64,000 nt of DNA. Origin: Panopea generosa (Eukaryota > Mollusca > Bivalvia > Adapedonta > Hiatellidae). Shown in pieces: positions 5,057 to 36,060 of this stretch (its first letter is position 1; each line of letters opens with the position of its first letter). The stretch is from contig CM055895.1 of assembly GCA_029582155.1 (NCBI GenBank), positions 14,498,787 through 14,562,786 on the forward strand, in the 5' to 3' direction. The translations under genes and the position numbers were made by a program. The notes beneath the pieces are model-generated. The model did no database searches. It saw only the letters and a program-made list of their open reading frames with translations, and was not told where the DNA came from.

Positions 5057-8000
5057 CTACAAACACAAAACACATACGAACATTGTAAGTACCAGTCTAA
5101 ATCAATGTGCTCACTTTTACAATTTAGCAAGGTTATCAGTAATTAAGAGAATAAATACATGTAAATTCATTTTTTAAAAGAAATAAAACATTTTTCAACA
5201 ATCAAATCAAGTTTTGTACGTATAGGTATACAAAATCACTGAGACAAATATTATGGTCTCCAGTTTATAAGAAATGGTAATAGAATGATAAATGCAGTGG
5301 TATGTAACATCATTTGTAACATAATGGCAGTATGATAAATGCAGTGGTTTGTTACATCATTTGTAACATAACGCAGTATGATAAATGCAGTGGTTTGTTA
5401 CATAATTTGTAACATAACAGCAGTATGATAAATGCAGTGGTATGTTACATCATTTGTAACATAACGCAGTATGTTAAATGCAGTGGTATGTTACATCATT
5501 TGTAACATAACGGCAGTATGATAAATGCAGTGGTATGTTACATCATTTGTAACCTAAAGGCAGTATGATTAATGCAGTGGTTTGTTACATCATTTGTAAC
5601 ATAACGGCAGTATGATAAATGCAGTGGTATGTTACATCATTTGTAACATAACAGCAGTATGATAAATGCAGTGGTATGTTACATCATTTGTAACATAATG
5701 GCAGTATGATAAATGCAGTGGTTTGTTACATCATTTGTAACATAATGCAGTATGATAAATGCAATGGTTTGTTACATCATTTGTAACATAACAGCAGTAT
5801 GATAAATGCAGTTGTATGTTTCATCATTTGTAACTTAACGGCAGTAGGATATATGCAGCGGTTTGTTACATCATTTGAACCATAATGGCAGTATGATAAA
5901 TGCAGTGGTTTATTACATCATTTGTAACATAACGCAGTATGATAAATGCAGTGGTTTGTTACATCATTTGTACCATTACGGCAGTAGGATAAATGCAGTG
6001 GTATGTTACATCATTTGTAACCTAACGGCAGTAGGATAAATGCAGTGGTATGTAACATCATTTGTAACATAACGCAGTATGATAAATGCAGTGGTATGTT
6101 ACATCATTTGTAACATAACGCAGTATGATAAATGCAGTGGTTTGTTACATCATTTGTACCATTACGGCAGTAGGATAAATGCAGTGGTATGTTACTTCAT
6201 TTGTAACCTAATGGCAGTAGGATTAATGCAGTTGTATGTAACATCATTTGTAACATAACCCAGTATGATAAATGCAGTGGTTTGTTACATCATTTGTACC
6301 ATTATGGCAGTAGGATAAATGCAGTGGTATGTTACTTCAATTGTAACCTAACAGCAGTAGGATAAATGCAGTGGCATGTAACATCATTTGTAACATAACG
6401 CAGTATGATTAATGCAGTGGTATGTTACATCATTTGTAACATAAAGCAGTATGATAAATGCAGTGGTATGTTACATCACTTGTAACATAACAGCAGTATG
6501 ATAAATGCAGTGGTTTGTTACATCATTTGAACCATAATGGCAGTATGATAAATGCAGTGGTATGTTACATCATTTGTAACATAACAGCAGTATGATAAAT
6601 GCAGTGGTATGTTACATCATTTGAACCATAATGGCAGTATGATAAATGCAGTGGTATGTTACATCATTTGTAACATAACAGCAGTATGATAAATGCAGTG
6701 GTATGTTACATCATTTGAACCATAACAGCAGTATGATAAATGCATTGGTATGTTACATCATTTGAACCATAACAGCAGTATGATAAATGCAGTGGTATGT
6801 TACATCATTTGAACCATAACAGCAGTAGGATAAATGCAGTGGTATGTTACATCATTTGAACCATAACAGCAGTATGATAAATGTAGTGGTGTGTTACATC
6901 ATTTGAACCATAACAGCAGTATGATAAATGCAGTGGTTTGTTACATCATTTGAACCATAACAGCAGTATGATAAATGCAGTGGTATGTTACATCATTTGT
7001 AACATAACAGCAGTATGATAAATGCAGTGGTATGTTACATCATTTGAACCATAACAGCAGTTTGATAAATGCAGTGGTATGTTACATCATTTGAACCATA
7101 ACAGCAGTATGATAAATACAGTGGTATGTTTCATCATTTGAACCATAATGGCAGTATGATAAATGCAGTGGTATGTTACATCATTTGTAGCATAACAGCA
7201 GTATGGTAAATGCAGTTGTATGTTACATCATTTGAACCATAACAGCAGTATGATAAATGCAGTGGTTTGTTACATCATTTGAACCATAACAGCAGTATGA
7301 TAAATGCAGTGGTATGTTACATAATTTGTAACATAACAGCAGTATGATAAATGCAGTGGTATGTTACATCATTTGAACCATAACAGCAGTTTGATAAATG
7401 CAGTGGTATGTTACATCATTTGAACCATAACAGCAGTATGATAAATGCAGTGGTTTGTTACATCATTTGAACCATAACAGCAGTATGATAAATGCAGTGG
7501 TATGTTACATAATTTGTAACATAACAGCAGTATGATAAATGCAGTGGTATGTTACATCATTTGAACCATAACAGCAGTTTGATAAATGCAGTGGTATGTT
7601 ACATCATTTGAACCATAACAGCAGTATGATAAATGCAGTGGTATGTTACATCATTTGTAACATAATGGCAGTATGATAAATGCAGTGGTATGTTACATCA
7701 TTTGAACCATAACAGCAGTATGATAAATGCAGTGGTATGTTACATCATTTGAACCATAACAGCAGTATGATAAATGCAGTTGTATGTTACATCATTTGAA
7801 CCATAACAGCAGTATGATAAATGCAGTGGTTTGTTACATCATTTGAACCATAACAGCAGTATGATAAATGCAGTGGTATGTTACATAATTTGTAACATAA
7901 CAGCAGTATGATAAATGCAGTGGTATGTTACATCATTTGAACCATAACAGCAGTTTGATAAATGCAGTGGTATGTTACATCATTTGAACCATAACAGCAG

Positions 8001-11000
8001 TATGATAAATGCAGTGGTATGTTACATCATTTGTAACATAATGGCAGTAGGATAAATGCAGTGGTATGTTACATCATTTGTAACATAACAGCAGTATGAT
8101 AAATGCAGTGGTATGTTACATCATTTGAACCATAACAGCAGTATGATAAATGCAGTGGTATGTTACATCATTTGTAACATAATGGTAGTATGATAAATGC
8201 AGTAGTATGTTACATCATTTGTAACCTAACAGCAGTAGGATAAATGCAGCGGTTTGTTACATCATTTGTAACATAACGGCAGTATGATAAATGCAGCGGT
8301 ATGTTACATCATTTGTAACATAACGTCAGTATGATAAATGCAGAGGTATGTTACATCATTAGTAACATAACGGCAGTATGATAAATGCAGTGGTACGTTA
8401 CATCATTTGAACCATAACAGCAGTATGATAAATGCAGTGGTATGTTACATTATTTGAACCATACAGCAGGAGGATAAGTTACATCATTTGTAACATAACA
8501 GCATCTATCTTGCAACAACAGAAGATATTTGACAATGTTTACTGTGGTGAAAACACAATCTAAAAAAAAACAGAAAATGACAATTACAGGTGAGGTTACG
8601 AGGAAGTGTTTACAGGTTTCTCGCCCAGTCACTGCTCAAGTTTATCAAATTCATTTTTACTGACCTCGTCTACTTCGTCCTCTATCTACACATTGCAGAA
8701 AAAAAGAGAAATGAACACTATTAATAGAACATACAATTATATAAAATTCTATAGTTAATATACAATACACATATGCATGTGTGATGTAACTACTATTAAT
8801 TACTTGTTTTTGTTTGAATATTTATTGTCATTTTTATACCATCAAGGGTTAACTGATGGTCAGTTTACCTAATCTCTTTTTCCTAGGATCCTGGAAGGCT
8901 AACCAGTGTTCAAGCACAACCATCTCATCTTTCCCACTTGAAAAAGTGGCGAGAGACGATGTTCAAGATTCATATATCGATCATCATGGAAACTGTAGAT
9001 GAGCGTGGATTCAAACTCATGACCCCTGTATTGAAGTCAGCCCACCACCAATTGAGCTAAAATGGTTGGCTCAAACGCAATGTATTTAGGGGGATGAATA
9101 TCTGAATTTGCATTGTAGATCATATCATGATCACATCGTCTTGAAACTTGACACATGTCCAAGAAAAATGACTTAATATCGTATTTAGAGACTACAATTT
9201 ACATTAAATGTTAACAGAGTGGAGTTTTCACAGTTTTTTCTATTTTGTTTTAGAAATTCATGTCTCCAAACATGAAATAGAAACAATGACATGTAACAAG
9301 AGGCATTGAAAGTCATCACGCTTGATTTTTGGAAGACAGGGATATAAATCTATCTAAATAAGAGTAAAAGTAAATGTTACTGCACTTGTCCCAATTACAT
9401 AATGTCATTCCTGCTATAAAACAATCATGTTTTTTTCTTATTATTAATTATATTAGTAGAGAAGAACTCATAACCACGTTTTTGTGATTTAATTGATTTT
9501 TTTTTGTTTCTTGTTTGTCTTTTGTTTTTGTTTTTTAATGTTTACAAAGGAGTTTTTTCTGTTTTTACTCTTTTGTTTTTAATAAATCACATCTTCAAAC
9601 ATCAAATGGATATACTGACATGTAACAAGAGGTCAACACGCTGAATATTTAGAAGATTGGGGTATAAATTTATTAAATATATCATGGCTATATATACGGA
9701 CAAACCCCATATTGCCAGATGGATATATATTCAAACATGCCAAAATAATGTATTGAAAAAGGTGTTTCCTAACTTGGGCTACACGCTTAGGTTATATATT
9801 TCTTATTTTTTTAATGGCCTGGTTATCCATAATATCAACATTGAATTCACTGTTTTATAACCAAATAAATGTAATGCTCTAAGGTTTGTTCACTTCATTA
9901 AAAGTAAAAATGAAGTAGCATAGGGGTGACATTTTATTGCATTTTTTTAGCATTTTCATTTTTTCGATTTCTCAGAAAAAAGTGTAGGTACATGCCTTCA
10001 ATGCCTATAAGAAGCTACACCACCGTTAACCAACTTTTCTGAGTATTAAAGCACCTATAATGCCATCTAAAGTCAAACCCGAGTTATCCAACATTTCCCC
10101 TTGTTTCCTCTTAATGGTTGTGAAAAAGTTTCATTTATGTATAACAAGTATAATTGATTTAAGTTAGTTGAAAACTGGGCAAGCTCAAAATTGCTGAGTA
10201 AAGATAAAGCAAGTAATTACTGCTTCTCATGCAACCAATTCATAATTGAGTACTGATATACCTGTCGTACCTGTTTAGAATAAATGAAGCCAATAAAATA
10301 TTTAAAACCATTCTCAAGTAACAAAAACGGAATGTAGTTACTGAGATATGAGCTTCCTAAAACATTTTACCAAACTGTCTAAATATAATAAAAAGGGCCA
10401 TAACTCTGCCTAAAATTAAAATGGACTTATCCTAAAAGTTTCTAAGGGTCCCTTGTATGGTAATAAAGGCACAATATCTAAATGTTTGTTGAGGCAATAC
10501 TATGATGTTGCTGAAGAACTATAACCAAATTATCTTAGTGCAAAAATGAAATAAATGAGCCTAAATCAAACAGGAGTTATCCCAATTTTTCCCTACAGTC
10601 ATTTCAGTGGTAATGAACAAATACATGCTGTCTCAGTGGTGTATGACTGGTAGTTACTGAGAGAGGAGCATGTTATGAAACTTGAACCAAATTTCCTAAG
10701 CAGAAAAAGGGCCATATATTTTCTAAAAAATCAAACTACTTGCAGGGATGGATGTGCCTTTAAGTTAGTAATGGTTAACCTTCATGGATTCAAGGAAAGA
10801 GTGGTTAGGTTAGTCTAGGATAGTCTGTTAGCTCTCAATGGCAGATTCAAAAGTAACAAAACGTTTGTTATCACCAATTTACAATTTAATTTTACCGAGT
10901 TATCTTAAAGGGAAGTACATTTACTCTTAGTGATGTTTACATTTAGTTCAAAGGTCATTTCATGTTTCTGTCCATGTATAAAGCAATTTATTTATGAATT

Positions 11001-12377: not shown

Positions 12378-15300
12378 GGGAGGGAGGGAGGGAGGGAGGG
12401 AGGGAGGGAGGGAGGGGTGAAACTTAATATAAGCATTTAATGGAAAAGAATACATAGTGTATGTACACTTAACCAATTTTCTAATTGGTAGCCTGAATTT
12501 TTAAGAAAACATTTTCTGGAAATTGTTAGAATACTTATATAAATTTTATTGTTTTAAATACTGTACTTAATGAGGAAGGCATCACGAAAATTTTATGAAA
12601 ATCATTCTTACGATTATTCAGTTTTATAAGTTTGTAACATCAACACCAAATAAATTGAAATTACTGATTAAATTCCATAGAAAACTCGTATATCTAATGC
12701 ATATCTTAATGCAAACTCTGTATTCCTGTGGCCAATATTCTGCATATTTCAAAATATAAAAATAAAAACTTTAGAAAGTCAAAGATCATGGTGATAATGT
12801 ATCAGAATTGAAATATAGACTTTATAATGTTTTTTAAGGGAATATATCAGGATTTTTCAAATGTTAAAATTTGCTGAAACATTTTATTCCAATGTAACAT
12901 GCCTAGATATAATACTACCCCTGTATTGCCATAAGGATATCTATTTAAACATGCCAAAATAAAATACTGAAAAGGAATTTCCTTACTTGGGACTACGTGC
13001 CTATGTTAGACTAAAATTTATTTCTCGTTTAAATTGCAATATATTTTATGACATATAAATTAAGTCATGTGATTTCATTTTGATTTCAATTTGATCTGTT
13101 ATACAGGTTTACATGCAGTAATGATTACTTTTATCTAAGAAAGAGTCAGGATGATGACATAAAGGTCATCAAACAGTACTGTCTATTTTGAGAATGGGGA
13201 TTTCATTTTAAGTTTACTACTCCAATTAAAATATCAATTTTGTTACATTTTGGTGGAAATGACATTCAGATTTTATCTATTTTATTATCCATTTTAGAAA
13301 TTATATTTTTAAGAAATTTATAGCGTTTTTTCTGATATACTTCCTTTAAAAGTGTCCTTTCATTTTTATAACACTAATCACACTGCTGGATAATGCACTT
13401 GTAACTTATTTCATAAAGTTTTGACAGAGCACGCAAGTATATTATAATGAAGCTTAATTATAACCTGTGTTAAATGAAAAAATGGATGATGGCCTACAGA
13501 CAATGACATTTTTGTTTGAATATTTAGGGTTATTTTTAAAGGGCTAACAGACGATTGGTTAGCGTAACCACTCTTTCCTGGGTTCCCTGAAGGTTAACCA
13601 GTACCCAAGTTACCCTAGATATATTCACCATAAATAAAATATCTGCTCCTTCCTCCTGAACGGTGGGTCGTATATGTGTGTCAAGTTACTCTAGATATAT
13701 TCACCATAAATAAGATATCTCCGCCATCCTCCTGAACAGTGGGTTGTATATGTGTGTCAAGTAACCCTAGATATATTCACCATAAATAAGATATCTCCGC
13801 CATCCTCCTGAACAGTGGATTGTATACATGTGTTAAGTAACTCTAGATATATATACCATGAATAAGATATCTCCGCTATCCTCCTGAACAGTGGGTCGTA
13901 CACGTGTGTCAAGTTACTCTGAATATACTCACCATAAATAAGATATATCCACCATCCTTAAGAACAGTGGGTCGTATACGTGTGTCAAGTAACTCTAGAT
14001 ATATTCATTATAAATAAGATATCTCTGCCATTCTCCTGAATAGAGGGTCGTATATGTGTGTCAAGTTACTCTGAATATACTCACCATAAATAAGATATAT
14101 CCACCATCCTCAAGAACAGTGGGTCATATACGTGTCAAATAACTCTAGATATATTCACTATAAATAAGATATCTCCGCCATTCACCTGAACAGTTGGTCA
14201 TACACGTGTGTCAAGTTACTCTGAATATACTCACCATAAATAAGATATATCCACCATCCTCAAGAACAGTGAGTCGTATACGTGTGTCAAGTAACTCTAG
14301 ATATATTCACTATAAATAAGATATCTACGCCATTCTCCTGAACAGTGGGTCGTACACGTGTGTCAAGTTACTCTGAATATACTCATCATAAATAAGATAT
14401 ATCCACCATCCTCAAGAACAGTGGGTCGTATATGTGTGTCAAGTAACTCTAGATATATTCACTATAAATAAGATATCTCCGCCATTCTCCTGAACAGTGG
14501 GTCGTACATGTGTGTCAAGTTACTCTGAATATACTCACCATAAATAAGATATATCCACAATCCTCAAGAACAGTGGGTCATATACGTGTGTCAAGTTACT
14601 CTAGATATACTCACCATAAATAAGATATCTCCGCCATCCTCTTGAACAGTGGGTCGTATACGTGTGTCAAGTAACTCTTTTATCATAGCAACTGTCTCAT
14701 CATCCTCCACATCTGGCACTGAAATGGTGTTGTGTGGATTTTTTTTAAGGTTTCAAATAGCAGAATAGCACTGATATTTAAACCATAACAGATTTAGAGA
14801 GACAGAGAGAAAGAGAGAGATAGAGAGAAGTGGGGCTGCCCCCACCCCCGATATTCAGGTTCAGCATATACTTTAGGGCCTGGAAGTGCATCCCCATACA
14901 CTCTCTCTCCTCAGGTTGTGCCCCCCTACCCAATAAATGGAACGCTCCTACAACCATGGTCATGGTGTTTTTTCTTTAAATTTTAAAATTGGCAAAATCA
15001 TTTTTTTCCAATACACCATCCTCAGATCTACTTACTGGGTCAAAACATGTAAAAAGTACTAGTTACATTAAAATATACCAAAAATAATATATTGAAAAGG
15101 GTCTCCTTAACTTGGCTTTTGTGCCGATAGGTTTGACTCAAATAATATTCCCACAAGCAATGCATTTTTGGGACGTATTAAATAAGTTGCTCGACTCCAG
15201 TTTGATCTGTCATACTGAACTTTATTCAACTTTAAACAATTCTAAATGACAAGAAAAATATTTGTCAAACATTGTTGCTATTTTTTAGAATTCGGATTCC

Positions 15301-29190: not shown

Positions 29191-30009
29191 TTCGATTAGG
29201 ATTTTATCAATTATATCTGATACAAGAACGCAACAAAATATGAAAATATCAGACTCGGTTTAACCGGGGCTGTTCATGAGGGTTAAGAAACACAAAACAC
29301 CCCCAACGCCTCTCGTACCGGCTTAGGTGGTATACTATAATATATCCCCGGACACCGCGATTCCATGGAAACAGAAATAACAACATCGAGTCAAATTAAA
29401 GTGCAGTTTACGGCTGCCACACAGGATATAAGATTGTCAATATCACAGGGGTTAGTGACAGCATATATTTTATAATTATATATTGTATAGTCTTTATTAT
29501 ACTATATGTAGGGATATACATGTATAATAGCCCCTGTGGTCAACACTATCTGATAAAAGGATCCATTGACGGCACAGAATGCAACCAAAAGAATAAAAAG
29601 GTAAAATTGTAGAACTACATAAAACTGAAATTTATTATAATGAAATGCATTGAAAATTGTTGATAAAATAATGACTGTTAATCGCTCATGTTATAAAACA
29701 TTCAATTATTTCTTATATCAATTTCCTTTAATTTTCTACACTTAAAAAAGTTAATATATTGATGCATATTTTTAATTCCGTGATGCTAGTATACACGGCA
29801 ATATTGAAAATTACAATTCACTAGACATGTGTGGGATATATATTGCAATTCATCTCAAGATAGAACATATGAAATAGCCAATCTGCGAGGATAACGTGCA
29901 GACTCTTCACGTACTTTTTAATTTCTCAAACAAATAGTAAACGTCCATACAAATGTTGTTTCCACCAGGCCAATATAGACGTATTTTATGACATTGATAT
30001 GACTGAATA
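29191..30009. other. spacer with a small inverted repeat
   Basis: 29250-29420 is less AT-rich than its surroundings and non-repetitive. No coding frame is convincing. CACAGGGG at about 29449 and its inverse CCCCTGTG at about 29532 flank an AT-rich core, possibly a very short MITE. Confidence 0.35.
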
Positions 30010-30023
30010 AAGTTACGGCTTTT

Positions 30024-31510
30024 GAAAGTGTGTAAAAATCAGCTGATATAAAGCCACGCCTTTTGATAGGGTGTAAGAATCGGTTGATATAAAGTCACGC
30101 CTTGTGGCAGGGTGTAAGAGCCTGTTGATATAAAATCACGCCTTGTGATAGGGCGTAAGAATCGGTTGATATAAAGTCTTGCCTTTTGATAAGGCGTAAG
30201 AATCGTTTGATGTAAAGTCACACCTTGTGATAGGGCGTAAGAGTCGGTTGATATAAAGTCACGCCTTGTGATAGGGCATAAGAATCGGCTGATATAAAAT
30301 CACGCCTTTTGATAGGTCGTAAGAGTCTGTTGATATAAAGTCACGCCTTTTGATTGGGCGTAAGAATCGGTTGATATAAAGTCACGCCATGTGATAGGGC
30401 GTAAGAATCGGTTGATATAAAGTCACGCCTTTTGATAGGGCATAAGAGTCTGTTGATATAAAGTCACGCCTTTTGATAGGGCGTAAGCGTCTGTTGATAT
30501 AAAGTCACTCCTTTTGATAGGGCGAAAGAATCGGCTGATATAAAGTCACGCCTTTTGATAGGGCGTAAGAGTCTGTTGATATAAAGTCACGCCTTGTGAT
30601 AGGGCGTAAGAGTCGGTTGATATAAAATCACGCCTTGTGATAAGGCGTATGAGTCTGTTGATATAAAGTCACGCCTTTTGATAAGGTGTAAGAATCGGTT
30701 TATATAAAGTCACGCTTTTTGATACGGCGTAAGAGTCTGTTGATATAAAGTCACGCCTTTTGATAGGGCGTAAGAGTCTGTTGATATAAAGTCACGTCTT
30801 TTGATAAGGCGTAAGAATCGGTTGATATAATGTTACACATTTTGATAGGGTGTAAGAATCGGTTAATATAAAGTCATGCTTTTTGATAGGGTGTAAGAAT
30901 CGATTACTATAAAGCCCGTGACGCCTTTTGATAGAGTGTAAGAATCGGTTAATATAAAGTCCGTGACGCCTCTTAATAGGGTGTATGAATCGCTTGGTAT
31001 AAAGCCACGGCGTTTGATAGGGTGTAAGAATCGGTATATTAAAAGTCCTTTTGATAGGACGTAAGAGTCTGTTGATGTAAAGTCCGTGTCGTCTTTGAAT
31101 AGGGTGTTCGAATCGGTTGGTATAAAGTCCTTTGATAGGGTGTAAGAATCGGTTGATATAAAGTCACGCGTATGAATTGGCTGATATAAAGTCACGCCTT
31201 TTGATAGGGTGTATGAATCGGTTTATTTTAAGTCCTTTTGATAGAGCATAAGAATCGGTTGATGTAAAGTCCGTGTCGTCTTTGGATAGGGTGTACGAAT
31301 CGGTTGATATAAAGTCCTTTGATAGGGTGTAAGAATCGGTTGATATAAAATCCGTGACGCCTCTGAATATGGTGTAAGAATCGGTTGATATAAAATCCGT
31401 GACGCCTCTGAATAGGGTGTAAGTATCGGTTGATATAAAGTCCGTGACGCCTCTGGATAGGCAGTAAGAATTGGTTGATATAAAGTCACGCCTTTTGATA
31501 GGGGTTAAGA
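30024..31510. repeat. 41-bp tandem satellite (about 36 copies)
   Basis: The unit contains 'ttgatataaagtcacgcctt' and 'ttgatagggcgtaagaatc'. The first two thirds are homogeneous. After about 30890 the units diverge and lengthen ('gtccgtgacgcctctgaata'). Minus-strand frames with repeated YQPILTPY peptides are products of the repeat. Confidence 0.93.
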
Positions 31511-31851: not shown

Positions 31852-32577
31852 TTAACACGTGCATATGCACTTTTCTGTCACCTGGTATTTGATTTTCTTC
31901 CATCTACAATCTATTTTTCTTTTGTTATTTTTTCCTCGTTCTTTACCACAATTCCCCTTTTTCTTGCTACTTTTATACCGTTTGCATTGCCATCTAAGCA
32001 CAAGTATTGTTTTAGAGTCGTCTGGAACGCAGGCCATCCCTGGCGGCCACGAACACGACCCTCCAGATACGCAAACTCCACTTCTAATGTACCGTGGCCA
32101 AAACAAAACTCCTTGGTCGTCCCACACGTACTCGGTCTGACATGACGACAACTGTAGCATGAACGACCTTACAGACGACAGTGTGCGGTTATCAAACGAG
32201 GCTGCGGCAGTGCTAGTTCTGAGGAGTTCGTTTAGCCTGTTTATGTCGCTTGCAGTATTTGAACTGTGCGTGATTGGCGGGAGACTAACCACGTGATCTG
32301 TGACGTCATTGGAAGGTTCGGGTTCTTCAATTGACATCCATTCTGGGTCGAACGCGTTGCCAAGAATACGAAACAATTTCTTAGTTTTGAGGTTATTGTC
32401 TTTAGGTAGATAATGATCCATTGCATGTATCCGAGAAATGGAAAACGAACTGTCCCGAAGAATTGTCGTTTTATTGGTGACTCCGATTGTTCCGCTGAGA
32501 CCGGCGGACGAGATTGCGCGACAACCAAAAACATAAATCAGGAACAAGAACCGCACCACAGATCCGGTATGGTAGGC
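31852..32577 (-). CDS. nog: Noggin-like secreted BMP antagonist, 3' exon (start codon in an upstream exon)
   Basis: Noggin binds BMP ligands outside the cell as a cystine-knot dimer and blocks receptor binding (family knowledge). The exon gives 241 residues. Residues 10-19 (FLFLIYVFGC) look like a signal-peptide core. Residues 68-83 (LFRILGNAFDPEWMSI) match the family LLxxxLGxxFDPxFM region. Residues 146-241 are the cysteine-rich domain, with WDDQGVLFWPRY, GVCVSGGSCSWPPGM, VLRWQC and a C-terminal KCICTC. There are N-glycosylation sequons at NKT (35) and NRT (130). The domain has 10 cysteines against 9 in vertebrate noggin, and a Lys/Arg-rich insertion at 199-224. An in-frame TAG directly precedes GCC at 32577 within a TTTATTTTAG acceptor, so the ATG must come from an upstream exon, which I did not find. 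Vertebrate noggin is intronless. A divergent noggin paralogue is also possible. Confidence 0.88.
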   Translation of the reverse strand, partial: AYHTGSVVRFLFLIYVFGCRAISSAGLSGTIGVTNKTTILRDSSFSISRIHAMDHYLPKDNNLKTKKLFRILGNAFDPEWMSIEEPEPSNDVTDHVVSLPPITHSSNTASDINRLNELLRTSTAAASFDNRTLSSVRSFMLQLSSCQTEYVWDDQGVLFWPRYIRSGVCVSGGSCSWPPGMACVPDDSKTILVLRWQCKRYKSSKKKGNCGKERGKNNKRKIDCRWKKIKYQVTEKCICTC

Positions 32578-33140: not shown

Positions 33141-33291
33141 ATGCTTTAATACAACAATTGACATCTATGACATCATTCAAATATTGTGATGCACCATGTT
33201 AAATATTATGTAATGTTTTTATTACATGTCATTTTAAATGTCATAAGGTTTCTTAATTCTTATCATGACATAATTAAATTTCATATCCTAT

Positions 33292-36060
33292 CATAGTTAT
33301 ATGATGTCATACTTGCCATGGTTATATAATGTCATACTTGTCATAGTTATATAATGTCATACTTGTCATAGTTAAATAATGTCATATTTATCATAGTTAT
33401 ATAATGTCATACTTGTTAAAGTTATCATATAATGTCATATTAATCATAGTTATATAATGGCATACGTGTTATCGTTATATTATGTCATATTTTTCATAAT
33501 TATATAATGTCATACGTGTCATAGTAATATAATGTCATACTTGTCATGATCATATATTGTCATTCGTGTCATTGTAATGTATTATGATACTTGTCATAGT
33601 TATAAGATATCATACATGTCATAGTTATTTAATGTCATACTTGTCATATTTCTTTAATGTCATACTTGTCACAGTTAAATATTGTCAAACATGTCATAGC
33701 TATCTAATGTCACAGTTATATAATGGCATTATAGTCATATTTATTAAATGGCATACTTGTCATAGTTATTTTATGCCAGACTTGTCAAAGTTATATAATG
33801 CCATACTAGTCATAGTTATATAATGTCATACTTGTCATAGTTATTTAATGTCATACATGTCATATTTGTATAATGTCATACTTGTCACATTTATATAATG
33901 GCATACATGTCATAGTTATACAATGTCTTACTAGTCACAAATATATAATGTCATACTAGCCATATTTATATCATGTCATACTTGTCATATTTATAAATTA
34001 TAATGTCATACTTGTCATAGTTATACAATATCATACTTGTCACAGTTATTTAATGCCATACTTGTCATGGTAATATAATGCAATATGGGTCATATTTATA
34101 TAATGTCATATTCGTCACATTTATATAATGTCATACATGTCATAGTTATATAATGTCATACTAGTCACTGATATATAATGTCATACTAGCCATATTTATA
34201 TAATGTTATACTTGTCATATTTATATAATGTCATACTTGTCATAGTTATATAATGTCATTCTTGTCATAGTTATATAATGTCATACTTGTCATAGTTATA
34301 TTATGTCAAACTTGTCATAGTTATACAATATCATACTTGTCATAGTTATTTAATGCCATACTTGTCATGGTAATATAATGCAATATAGTCATAGTAAAAT
34401 AATGTCATACTTGTCACAGTTACGTATTGAATTACTTGTCATAGTTATTTTATGCCAGGGTTTTCATAGTAATATAATGTGATTCGTGTCATAGTCATAT
34501 AATATCATAATTGTCATAGTTCTATAATGTGATACTTGTCATAGTTATATAATTTTATACATGTCATTGTTATATAATACCATACTTGTAATAGTTATAC
34601 AATGCCATACTTGTCATAGTTATGTAATACCATACATGTCACAGTTGTATAATGTCATACTTTTCACAGTTATATAATGTCATACTTGTCACAGTTATAT
34701 AATGTCAAAATTGTCATATCTATATAATATCATACTTGTCATTGTTATATACTGTCAAAATTGTCATAGTTATATAATGTCATACTTGTCATATTTATAT
34801 ACTGTCATACTTGTCTTAGTATATAATGTCATACTTGTCTTAGTATATAATGTCATACGTGTCATAGTTATATAATGCCATAATTGTCATAGTTATATAA
34901 TGTCATACGTGTCATAGTAATATAAGTTCATACTTGTCATAGTTATATAATGTCATACTTGTCATAGTTGTACCATGTCATACGTGTCATAGTTATATAA
35001 GTTCATACTTGTCATAGTTATATAAGTTCATACTTGTCATAGTTATAAAATGGCAAACTTTTCATAGTTATTTAATGCCATGCTTATCAAAGTTATATAA
35101 TTCCATACATGTCATAGTTATAAAATGCCATACTTGTCATAGTTATTTAATGACATAGATGTCATAGTTATATAATTTCATACTTGTCATAGTTATATAA
35201 TATCATACATGTCATAGTTATGTAATGTCATACTTGGCATAGTTATTTAATGCCATACTTGTCACAGTTATATAATTTCATAAATGTCATAGTTATATAA
35301 TGCCATACTTGTCATAGTTATATAAATAAATGCATGTCATAGTTATATAATTTCATACTTGTTTAAGTTATAGAATGGCATACATATCATAGTTATATGA
35401 TATCATACTTGTCATAGCTATATAATGTCATACTTGTCAAAGTTATATAATGCCATACGTTTCATAGTTATATAATGTAATACTTGTCACAGGTATATAA
35501 TGTGATACTTGTCATAGTTATAAAATGCCATACGTGTCATAGTTATATAATGTGATACTTGTCATAGTTATATAATGTCATACATGTCATAGTTATATAA
35601 TGCCATCAATGTCATATTTATATAATGTCATACTTGTCATAGTTATATAATGTCATACTTGTCATAGTTATATAATGTCATAGTTATCATAGTTTTATAA
35701 TGTCATAATTGTTAAAGTTATATAATGCCATACGTGTCATAGTTATATAATGCCATACATGTCATAGTTATATAATGCTTTATATGTCAAAGTCATATTA
35801 TGCCATACGTGTCATAGTCATATAATGTCACAATTGTCATAGTTATATAATGTCATACGTGTTATAGTTATATATTGTGATATTTGTCATAGGTATATAT
35901 TGTGATACTTGTCATAGTTATATAATGTCATACATGTCATAGTTATATAATGTCATACTTGTCATAGTTATATAATGTCATACTTGTTATAGTCATAATT
36001 ATAATGTCATACGTGTCATAGTTATATGATATCATGCATGTAATTGTCATATTATGTCTC
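33292..36060. repeat. 25-bp AT-rich tandem satellite (about 110 copies)
   Basis: The unit is 'gtcatagttatataatgtca' plus 'tactt'. Most copies differ from the consensus at a few positions and there is no strong higher-order order. Short inverted words (atgtca/tgacat-like) recur in every unit. It lies about 700 bp upstream of the noggin-like exon, in that gene's intron or 5' flank. Confidence 0.95.

Follow-up and report, generated by a model that had tools for sequence, protein, structure and literature searches.

Why does the end of a conserved coding exon, 5′ splice site included, recur about thirteen times in the intron that follows it, and does the cell make any use of the copies? The question arises at the NFU1 gene of the geoduck Panopea generosa, within a 64,000-nucleotide stretch of contig CM055895.1 (assembly GCA_029582155.1; hereafter the window). 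An original prediction, made from the letters of the DNA, had seen here a minisatellite built from exon and splice site, and had suggested that it might tune NFU1 output, act as a U1 snRNP sink, or be neutral. Our analysis favours the last of these. We consider it probable (about 0.85) that the array is a neutral, mirage-type minisatellite, a by-product of minisatellite growth, and that splicing proceeds at the true donor.

The NFU1 gene and its array-bearing exon

The gene lies on the minus strand, and its six coding exons, located by reading frame, motif and splice site, have AG/GT borders (Table 1); the count is of coding exons found, and exons further upstream would fall outside it. Joined, the six give a single open frame to the final stop and a protein of 202 aa, which matches the Pfam families Nfu_N (5.7e-32) and NifU (2e-28) as well as the human NFU1 structures 2ltm (2.5e-40) and 2m5o (1.3e-37). 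These matches bear out the earlier identification of the gene, whereas the exon formerly labelled ‘exon 6’ is the fourth of the six found. The first codon of this exon is split with the preceding exon. At its other end, the alignment with 2m5o runs without a gap across the join that the first donor makes with the next exon; thus, on the evidence of the protein, splicing uses the first donor. None of the copies is needed to complete the protein, and the intron in which the copies lie is about 2.4 kb long (14614–12219).

Table 1. Features of the NFU1 locus, in positions of the window (a slash within a motif marks the splice junction)
Feature	Position	Strand	Remark
Coding exon 1 found	17415–17280	minus	
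Coding exon 2 found	16414–16348	minus	
Coding exon 3 found	15911–15797	minus	
Array-bearing exon, fourth of six found	14718–14615	minus	104 nt, 35 residues, donor ATG/GTGAGT
Founder unit, copy 1	14676–14601	minus	62 nt of exon end + 14 nt of intron
In-frame TGA past the true donor	14593–14591	minus	precedes all four intact decoys
Copies 2–14	14600–13615	minus	twelve of 76 bp, one of 74 bp
Decoy donor, copy 2	14541–14533	minus	exon would end at 14539 and measure 180 nt
Decoy donor, copy 6	14237–14229	minus	last base 14235; exon 484 nt
Decoy donor, copy 8	14087–14079	minus	last base 14085; exon 634 nt
Decoy donor, copy 10	13935–13927	minus	last base 13933; exon 786 nt
Partial unit GGTAACTTG, far array end	13614–13606	minus	9 nt
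3′ part of SINE-like repeat	13604–13512	minus	starts two bases beyond array end
Exon after the array	12218–12084	minus	GSCTGC (CxxC) motif
Last coding exon found	8685–8629	minus	

Anatomy of the array

Tandem Repeats Finder places the array at 13606–14678, with a period of 76, 14.1 copies and 83% matches, and reports a period of 152 as well. The repeat unit consists of the last 62 nt of the exon and the first 14 nt of the intron, although an AG at both ends also allows a division into 64 and 12, and the 13 further, intronic copies follow directly after the exon. The predicted composition of the unit, exon end plus 5′ splice site in about 13 copies adjoining the exon, is therefore confirmed, with either division. 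Its first 64 nt (the 62 exon nt plus GT) find 60 matching positions within the intronic array, whereas 500 mononucleotide shuffles reached no more than 34 and the rest of the window no more than 33; the likeness of array to exon is thus beyond chance. Without the GT, the count is 58 of the 62 exon nt; the opening 42 nt of the exon have no repeat in the array (best match 20/42). The units stand head to tail, are of minisatellite size, span the exon–intron boundary and adjoin the authentic exon, and the proposed origin, duplication in place of half an exon with its 5′ splice site, holds. A coding (exonic) minisatellite it is not, since 76 is not a multiple of three, stops occur in the copies, and a TGA is reached after seven codons.

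The copies fall into types. Copies 2, 4, 6, 8 and 10 (type B) alternate with copies 3, 5, 7 and 9 (type A) in a 152-bp higher-order repeat, and copies 11–14 belong to neither type, copy 13 being the closest to the exon (5 differences). The mean difference is 4.5% within type B, 6.8% within type A and 18.7% between the two, and 9–11% from the exon. The alternation, together with the low divergence within types, points to amplification and homogenisation by 152-bp dimers. The homogenised copies are the inner ones, 2–10; the exon copy and copies 11–14 stand apart. In a single DNA search of the whole genome, which skips very common words, a 301-bp query from the far end returned 6 matches, all inside the NFU1 array.

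Decoy donors and the fate of the copies

The motif ATG/GTGAGT is intact in four of the 13 intronic copies (2, 6, 8 and 10), in keeping with the earlier statement that several retain GTGAGT. A GT at the donor place is kept in 11 of 13, having been lost in copies 4 and 9; the place reads ATAGTGAAT in copies 3, 5 and 7, ATGGTATAT in copy 11 and ATGGTGAAT in copies 12–14. Past the true donor the reading frame continues as VSISRVT before it meets a TGA: the stop had been foreseen, and it comes after seven sense codons, not eight. It likewise holds that use of a decoy would bring a stop before the CxxC exon.

Against the sequence that we take to be the 5′ end of U1, the true donor and each of the four intact decoys form a duplex of −11.8 kcal/mol. 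The weaker copies give −5.6 (12–14), −5.1 (11) and −2.1 kcal/mol (3, 5 and 7), and four other NFU1 donors −4.5, −8.1, −4.0 and −12.7 kcal/mol. Because the pairing of the intact decoys equals that of the true donor, and copies 12–14 are no weaker than two donors of NFU1 itself, the decoys cannot be dismissed as too weak.

How the copies have changed bears on whether any part of them is preserved. Their exon part carries 33 distinct changes, 24 missense, 7 silent and 2 to stop, where random change would give about 68–73% missense, 23–29% silent and 4% stop; in 7 of the 13 copies TAA replaces TTA. The donor 9-mer is retained in 4/13 copies, against a mean of 4.64 (sd 3.34) over all 76 nine-mers of the unit. 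These figures point to neutrality: neither coding sequence nor donor appears to be specially retained, and the copies seem to drift like non-coding DNA, with the proviso that kinship among the copies weakens both tests.

Boundary arrays at other geoduck genes

Arrays over splice sites were sought at 140 further geoduck exons. The Ras-family sample (PF00071) comprised 110 of 150 scored hits, namely the best 30 plus 80 more, the latter all without in-frame stops and taken mostly in list order; of the 40 left out, 30 have in-frame stops and 10 do not. The chaperonin sample (PF00118) comprised 30 of 47 exon hits. The flanking sequence taken was 1500 bp for one half of the exons (70) and 250 bp for the remaining 70. 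Arrays of more than four copies lie over splice sites at three of the 110 Ras-family exons (loci L030, L033 and L141), two at 5′ sites and one at a 3′ site, and at none of the 30 chaperonin exons examined. The combined figure, NFU1 apart, is 3/140 (2.1%, 95% limits 0.4–6.1%), in a sample where the Ras exons are paralogues and array thresholds varied between subsets.

Each of the three has its own form. At L141 with L147 (G000:C11:57437558–57439025, gene on the minus strand) a 63-bp unit holds 60 nt of exon and AACAAG/GT; there are 17 donor sites including the true one, the 11-mer ACAAGGTAATG being unchanged in 13, and at least 16 further copies, 95–97% alike and each with AACAAG/GTAAT, in an array that runs to the end of the sequence examined. 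As a case of decoy donors this locus is cleaner than NFU1. At L030 (912–1509), whose exon is presumably Rho/Rac-like, the repeated element is a 50-bp unit that contains the 5′ splice site GCCGGACAG/GTAGGT; many copies are decayed, and the eleven sites including the true one show 0 to 6 mismatches in 25. The L033 array (1044–1559) has a 107-bp unit, present in 4.8 copies that are 98% alike; each unit joins the 3′ splice site TTTCTATTTTCAG/CTCACC to 26 nt of exon, so that four near-identical decoy acceptors, pyrimidine tract included, precede the true one. Six near misses (L048, L052, L053, L055, L060 and L071) were inspected by eye and left out of the count; L071 is ambiguous, its array beginning 4 bp beyond the match. 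Also uncounted is L021, where a 21-bp repeat over the match end has only 2.0 copies.

The share of sequence covered by arrays was followed outwards from the edges of the domain matches, which are not necessarily exon edges. Across the 70 loci with 1500-bp flanks, it is 0.35% inside the exon matches, 2.9% in the first 25 bp outside, 4.3–4.6% at 25–250 bp, 7.5% at 250–500 bp and 10.7–11.4% at 500–1500 bp. For the 40 Ras loci whose flanks were 250 bp, the corresponding shares are 1.1% inside, 1.3–1.5% to 100 bp and 3.3% at 100–250 bp; the 30 chaperonin loci have no array sequence either inside or outside the matches. An enrichment of arrays at exon edges is accordingly rejected, 3 of the 280 match edges of all sets lying in an array as against about 11% of bases at 500–1500 bp.

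Discussion

The NFU1 array is of the mirage kind known from amphioxus; what is new is that mirages also occur in a bivalve, with about 2% of the exons sampled bearing one. The name was given to tandem repeats over exon–intron boundaries of the amphioxus Adh3 gene (Canestro et al. 2002, as related in parts of PMC3087553 and PMC3902484). Their units measure 10–72 bp, and AG/GT signals persist in many copies, not in all (PMC3087553, in part). As far as the same excerpts go, splicing in amphioxus is seemingly undisturbed by the leftover decoy signals, and somatic instability is reported for the Adh3 mirages. The resemblance to NFU1 lies in boundary repeats with partly kept signals, in a different gene and a different phylum.

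The amphioxus globins, in the sections of PMC3087553 available, supply closer likenesses. In BflGb9 it is an exon's 3′ boundary that is duplicated, as in the NFU1 array, and BflGb6 repeats an intron end with an exon start, as L033 does; furthermore, inner copies are homogenised and boundary copies are not, which is again the state of affairs at NFU1. The globin units are larger, at 150–160 bp, with 6 and 3 units in two BflGb6 haplotypes, whereas NFU1 has 76-bp units, 13 further copies and a dimer pattern. The lancelet PGBD5 repeats, in the accessible text of PMC3902484, also include splice sites and are said to leave splicing undisturbed; unlike the NFU1 array they are of 60 and 108 bp, the 108-bp one being a triplication. 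Troponin C mirages in lancelet are mentioned there too.

Genes within human segmental duplications carry variable repeats of minisatellite size, some of them at exon–intron boundaries as in NFU1, and so offer a kindred case outside lancelets (PMC2812944, excerpts). These differ in belonging to recent paralogues, in having units of about 30 bp and a mean of 4 copies, and in often altering protein or splicing. Since the human boundary repeats are linked to altered splicing, such repeats are not necessarily silent. The available portions of a report on earthworm intronic minisatellites and exon duplication (PMC12783039) mention no array across a splice site, and searches of open-licence papers brought up no ‘mirage’ array outside amphioxus.

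In the tandem-duplication model of intron gain, an AGGT inside an exon is duplicated and a new intron results. The NFU1 array instead multiplies the boundary of an existing intron: its site is ATG/GTGAGT, not a duplicated AGGT, and the protein is complete without the copies. What the two have in common is that splice signals are copied by tandem duplication within a gene. Intron gain by tandem genomic duplication is the topic of PMC4974935 and PMC3443670.

Could the decoys be put to use? Splicing at one of them, copy 2 being the likeliest, would retain the TGA and expose the transcript to degradation, so that array length would set NFU1 output. Four decoys do have the true donor's sequence and lie beyond the in-frame TGA, which stands 52 nt before the copy-2 junction with a further exon junction downstream, and the human boundary repeats cited above were accompanied by changed splicing (PMC2812944, excerpts). 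Having raised this possibility, we would note that the decoys are retained no better than the rest of the unit, that type A copies are without a strong donor, that similar arrays sit at other genes, and that amphioxus mirages are reported, in the excerpts of PMC3087553 and PMC3902484, as not disturbing splicing. We therefore regard such unproductive splicing as quite unlikely. The wider conjecture, that some decoys are used and that copy number is a heritable dial on the share of early-stop NFU1, likewise at other geoduck mirage genes, is decidedly improbable; if true, an unstable minisatellite would set iron–sulphur cluster assembly heritably. Tuning of NFU1 output thus appears to find no support in the sequence, given a retention of 4/13 against 4.64, changes resembling random ones and similar arrays elsewhere. 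Much the same would apply to a U1 snRNP sink, or a guard against premature 3′ end formation within the intron, which is barely credible here. Five identical strong U1 sites, including the true one, do lie within about 0.7 kb; however, donor retention does not exceed the unit average, the intron is only about 2.4 kb long, and a role for U1 would not explain the class, given that the L033 array repeats a 3′ splice site.

It is also very improbable that the array is a starting point for a new exon or intron, along the lines of the amphioxus globin scheme, in which the gain of an acceptor turns a copy into an exon. That route is proposed in the available part of PMC3087553, a paper on human paralogues reports that repeats at such boundaries may give rise to novel introns (PMC2812944, in part), and each type B copy closes with a TTCAG that lies 14 nt beyond the donor position. 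By eye, however, a good pyrimidine tract is absent before this AG; moreover, a 62-nt exon would shift the frame, and coding constraint is not seen in the copies. An assembly artefact deserves mention because tandem arrays are often mis-sized, and one amphioxus globin mirage was apparently mis-assembled in the draft genome (PMC3087553, in part). Here it can scarcely be entertained: any two of copies 2–14 show between 2 and 17 differences over 76 positions and hence are not a single stretch duplicated in error, and the array of about 1 kb compares with a subread N50 of 26.5 kb (PMC10729735, in part). The reading that fits best is thus the neutral one, on the strength of donor retention, the pattern of changes, the arrays at other genes and the amphioxus reports.

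The main argument for regarding the neutral array as a tolerated by-product is the scarcity of arrays near exons. This scarcity is as expected if most arrays that touch splice sites are harmful and removed, the mirages being those that leave the outermost true site working. With bivalve mirages at 3/140 sampled exons, such structures may emerge wherever minisatellites abound. They can mislead gene models; they are also natural experiments on how the spliceosome chooses among similar sites, as at L141, L033 and NFU1.

Origin of the array and its surroundings

We propose that tandem duplication of a stretch across the exon–intron boundary came first, and that amplification then carried the repeat into the intron. 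The founder copy would have remained the working exon end, leaving the intronic copies free to drift and to be homogenised mutually as 152-bp dimers. Of all the donors, the true one is nearest to the acceptor-bearing exon body and is presumably the one used; use of a decoy would extend the exon to 180–786 nt with an early stop. The setting is rich in such material. For the Panopea generosa assembly, a tandem-repeat share of 23.58% and a GC content of 34.33% are given (PMC10729735, in part); the window has 35.3% GC, and about 25 of its 64 kb lie in arrays by a hand-merged list.

The first duplication may have had its ends in two short matching stretches, 76 bp apart and one of them possibly borne by a SINE; such an event would yield the unit observed. 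Besides the SINE-like repeat next to the array (Table 1), the window holds six other copies, partial or longer, five of which cover the site that adjoins the array end. The majority form of these five, by eye, is AGTTACTTG, identical with the nine letters that open the unit in the exon; it is exact in only one SINE copy, and the array end itself reads GGTAACTTG. A SINE-seeded origin is offered as a lead only. The six copies are at about 8.9, 10.8, 11.8, 17.6, 22.0 and 59.9 kb, some with what looks by eye like a tRNA-like head.

Other features of the window were noted in passing. A 47-bp minisatellite of 68 copies (5285–8477) starts about 150 bp past the NFU1 stop, perhaps in the 3′ UTR. Eight further open frames were compared with Pfam, six of them without a match at E 0.1; one gave a weak match to GNT-I (0.076), and one encodes Noggin (1.9e-33; 31855–32577, minus strand), lying between minisatellites at 30007–31510 and 33291–36058.
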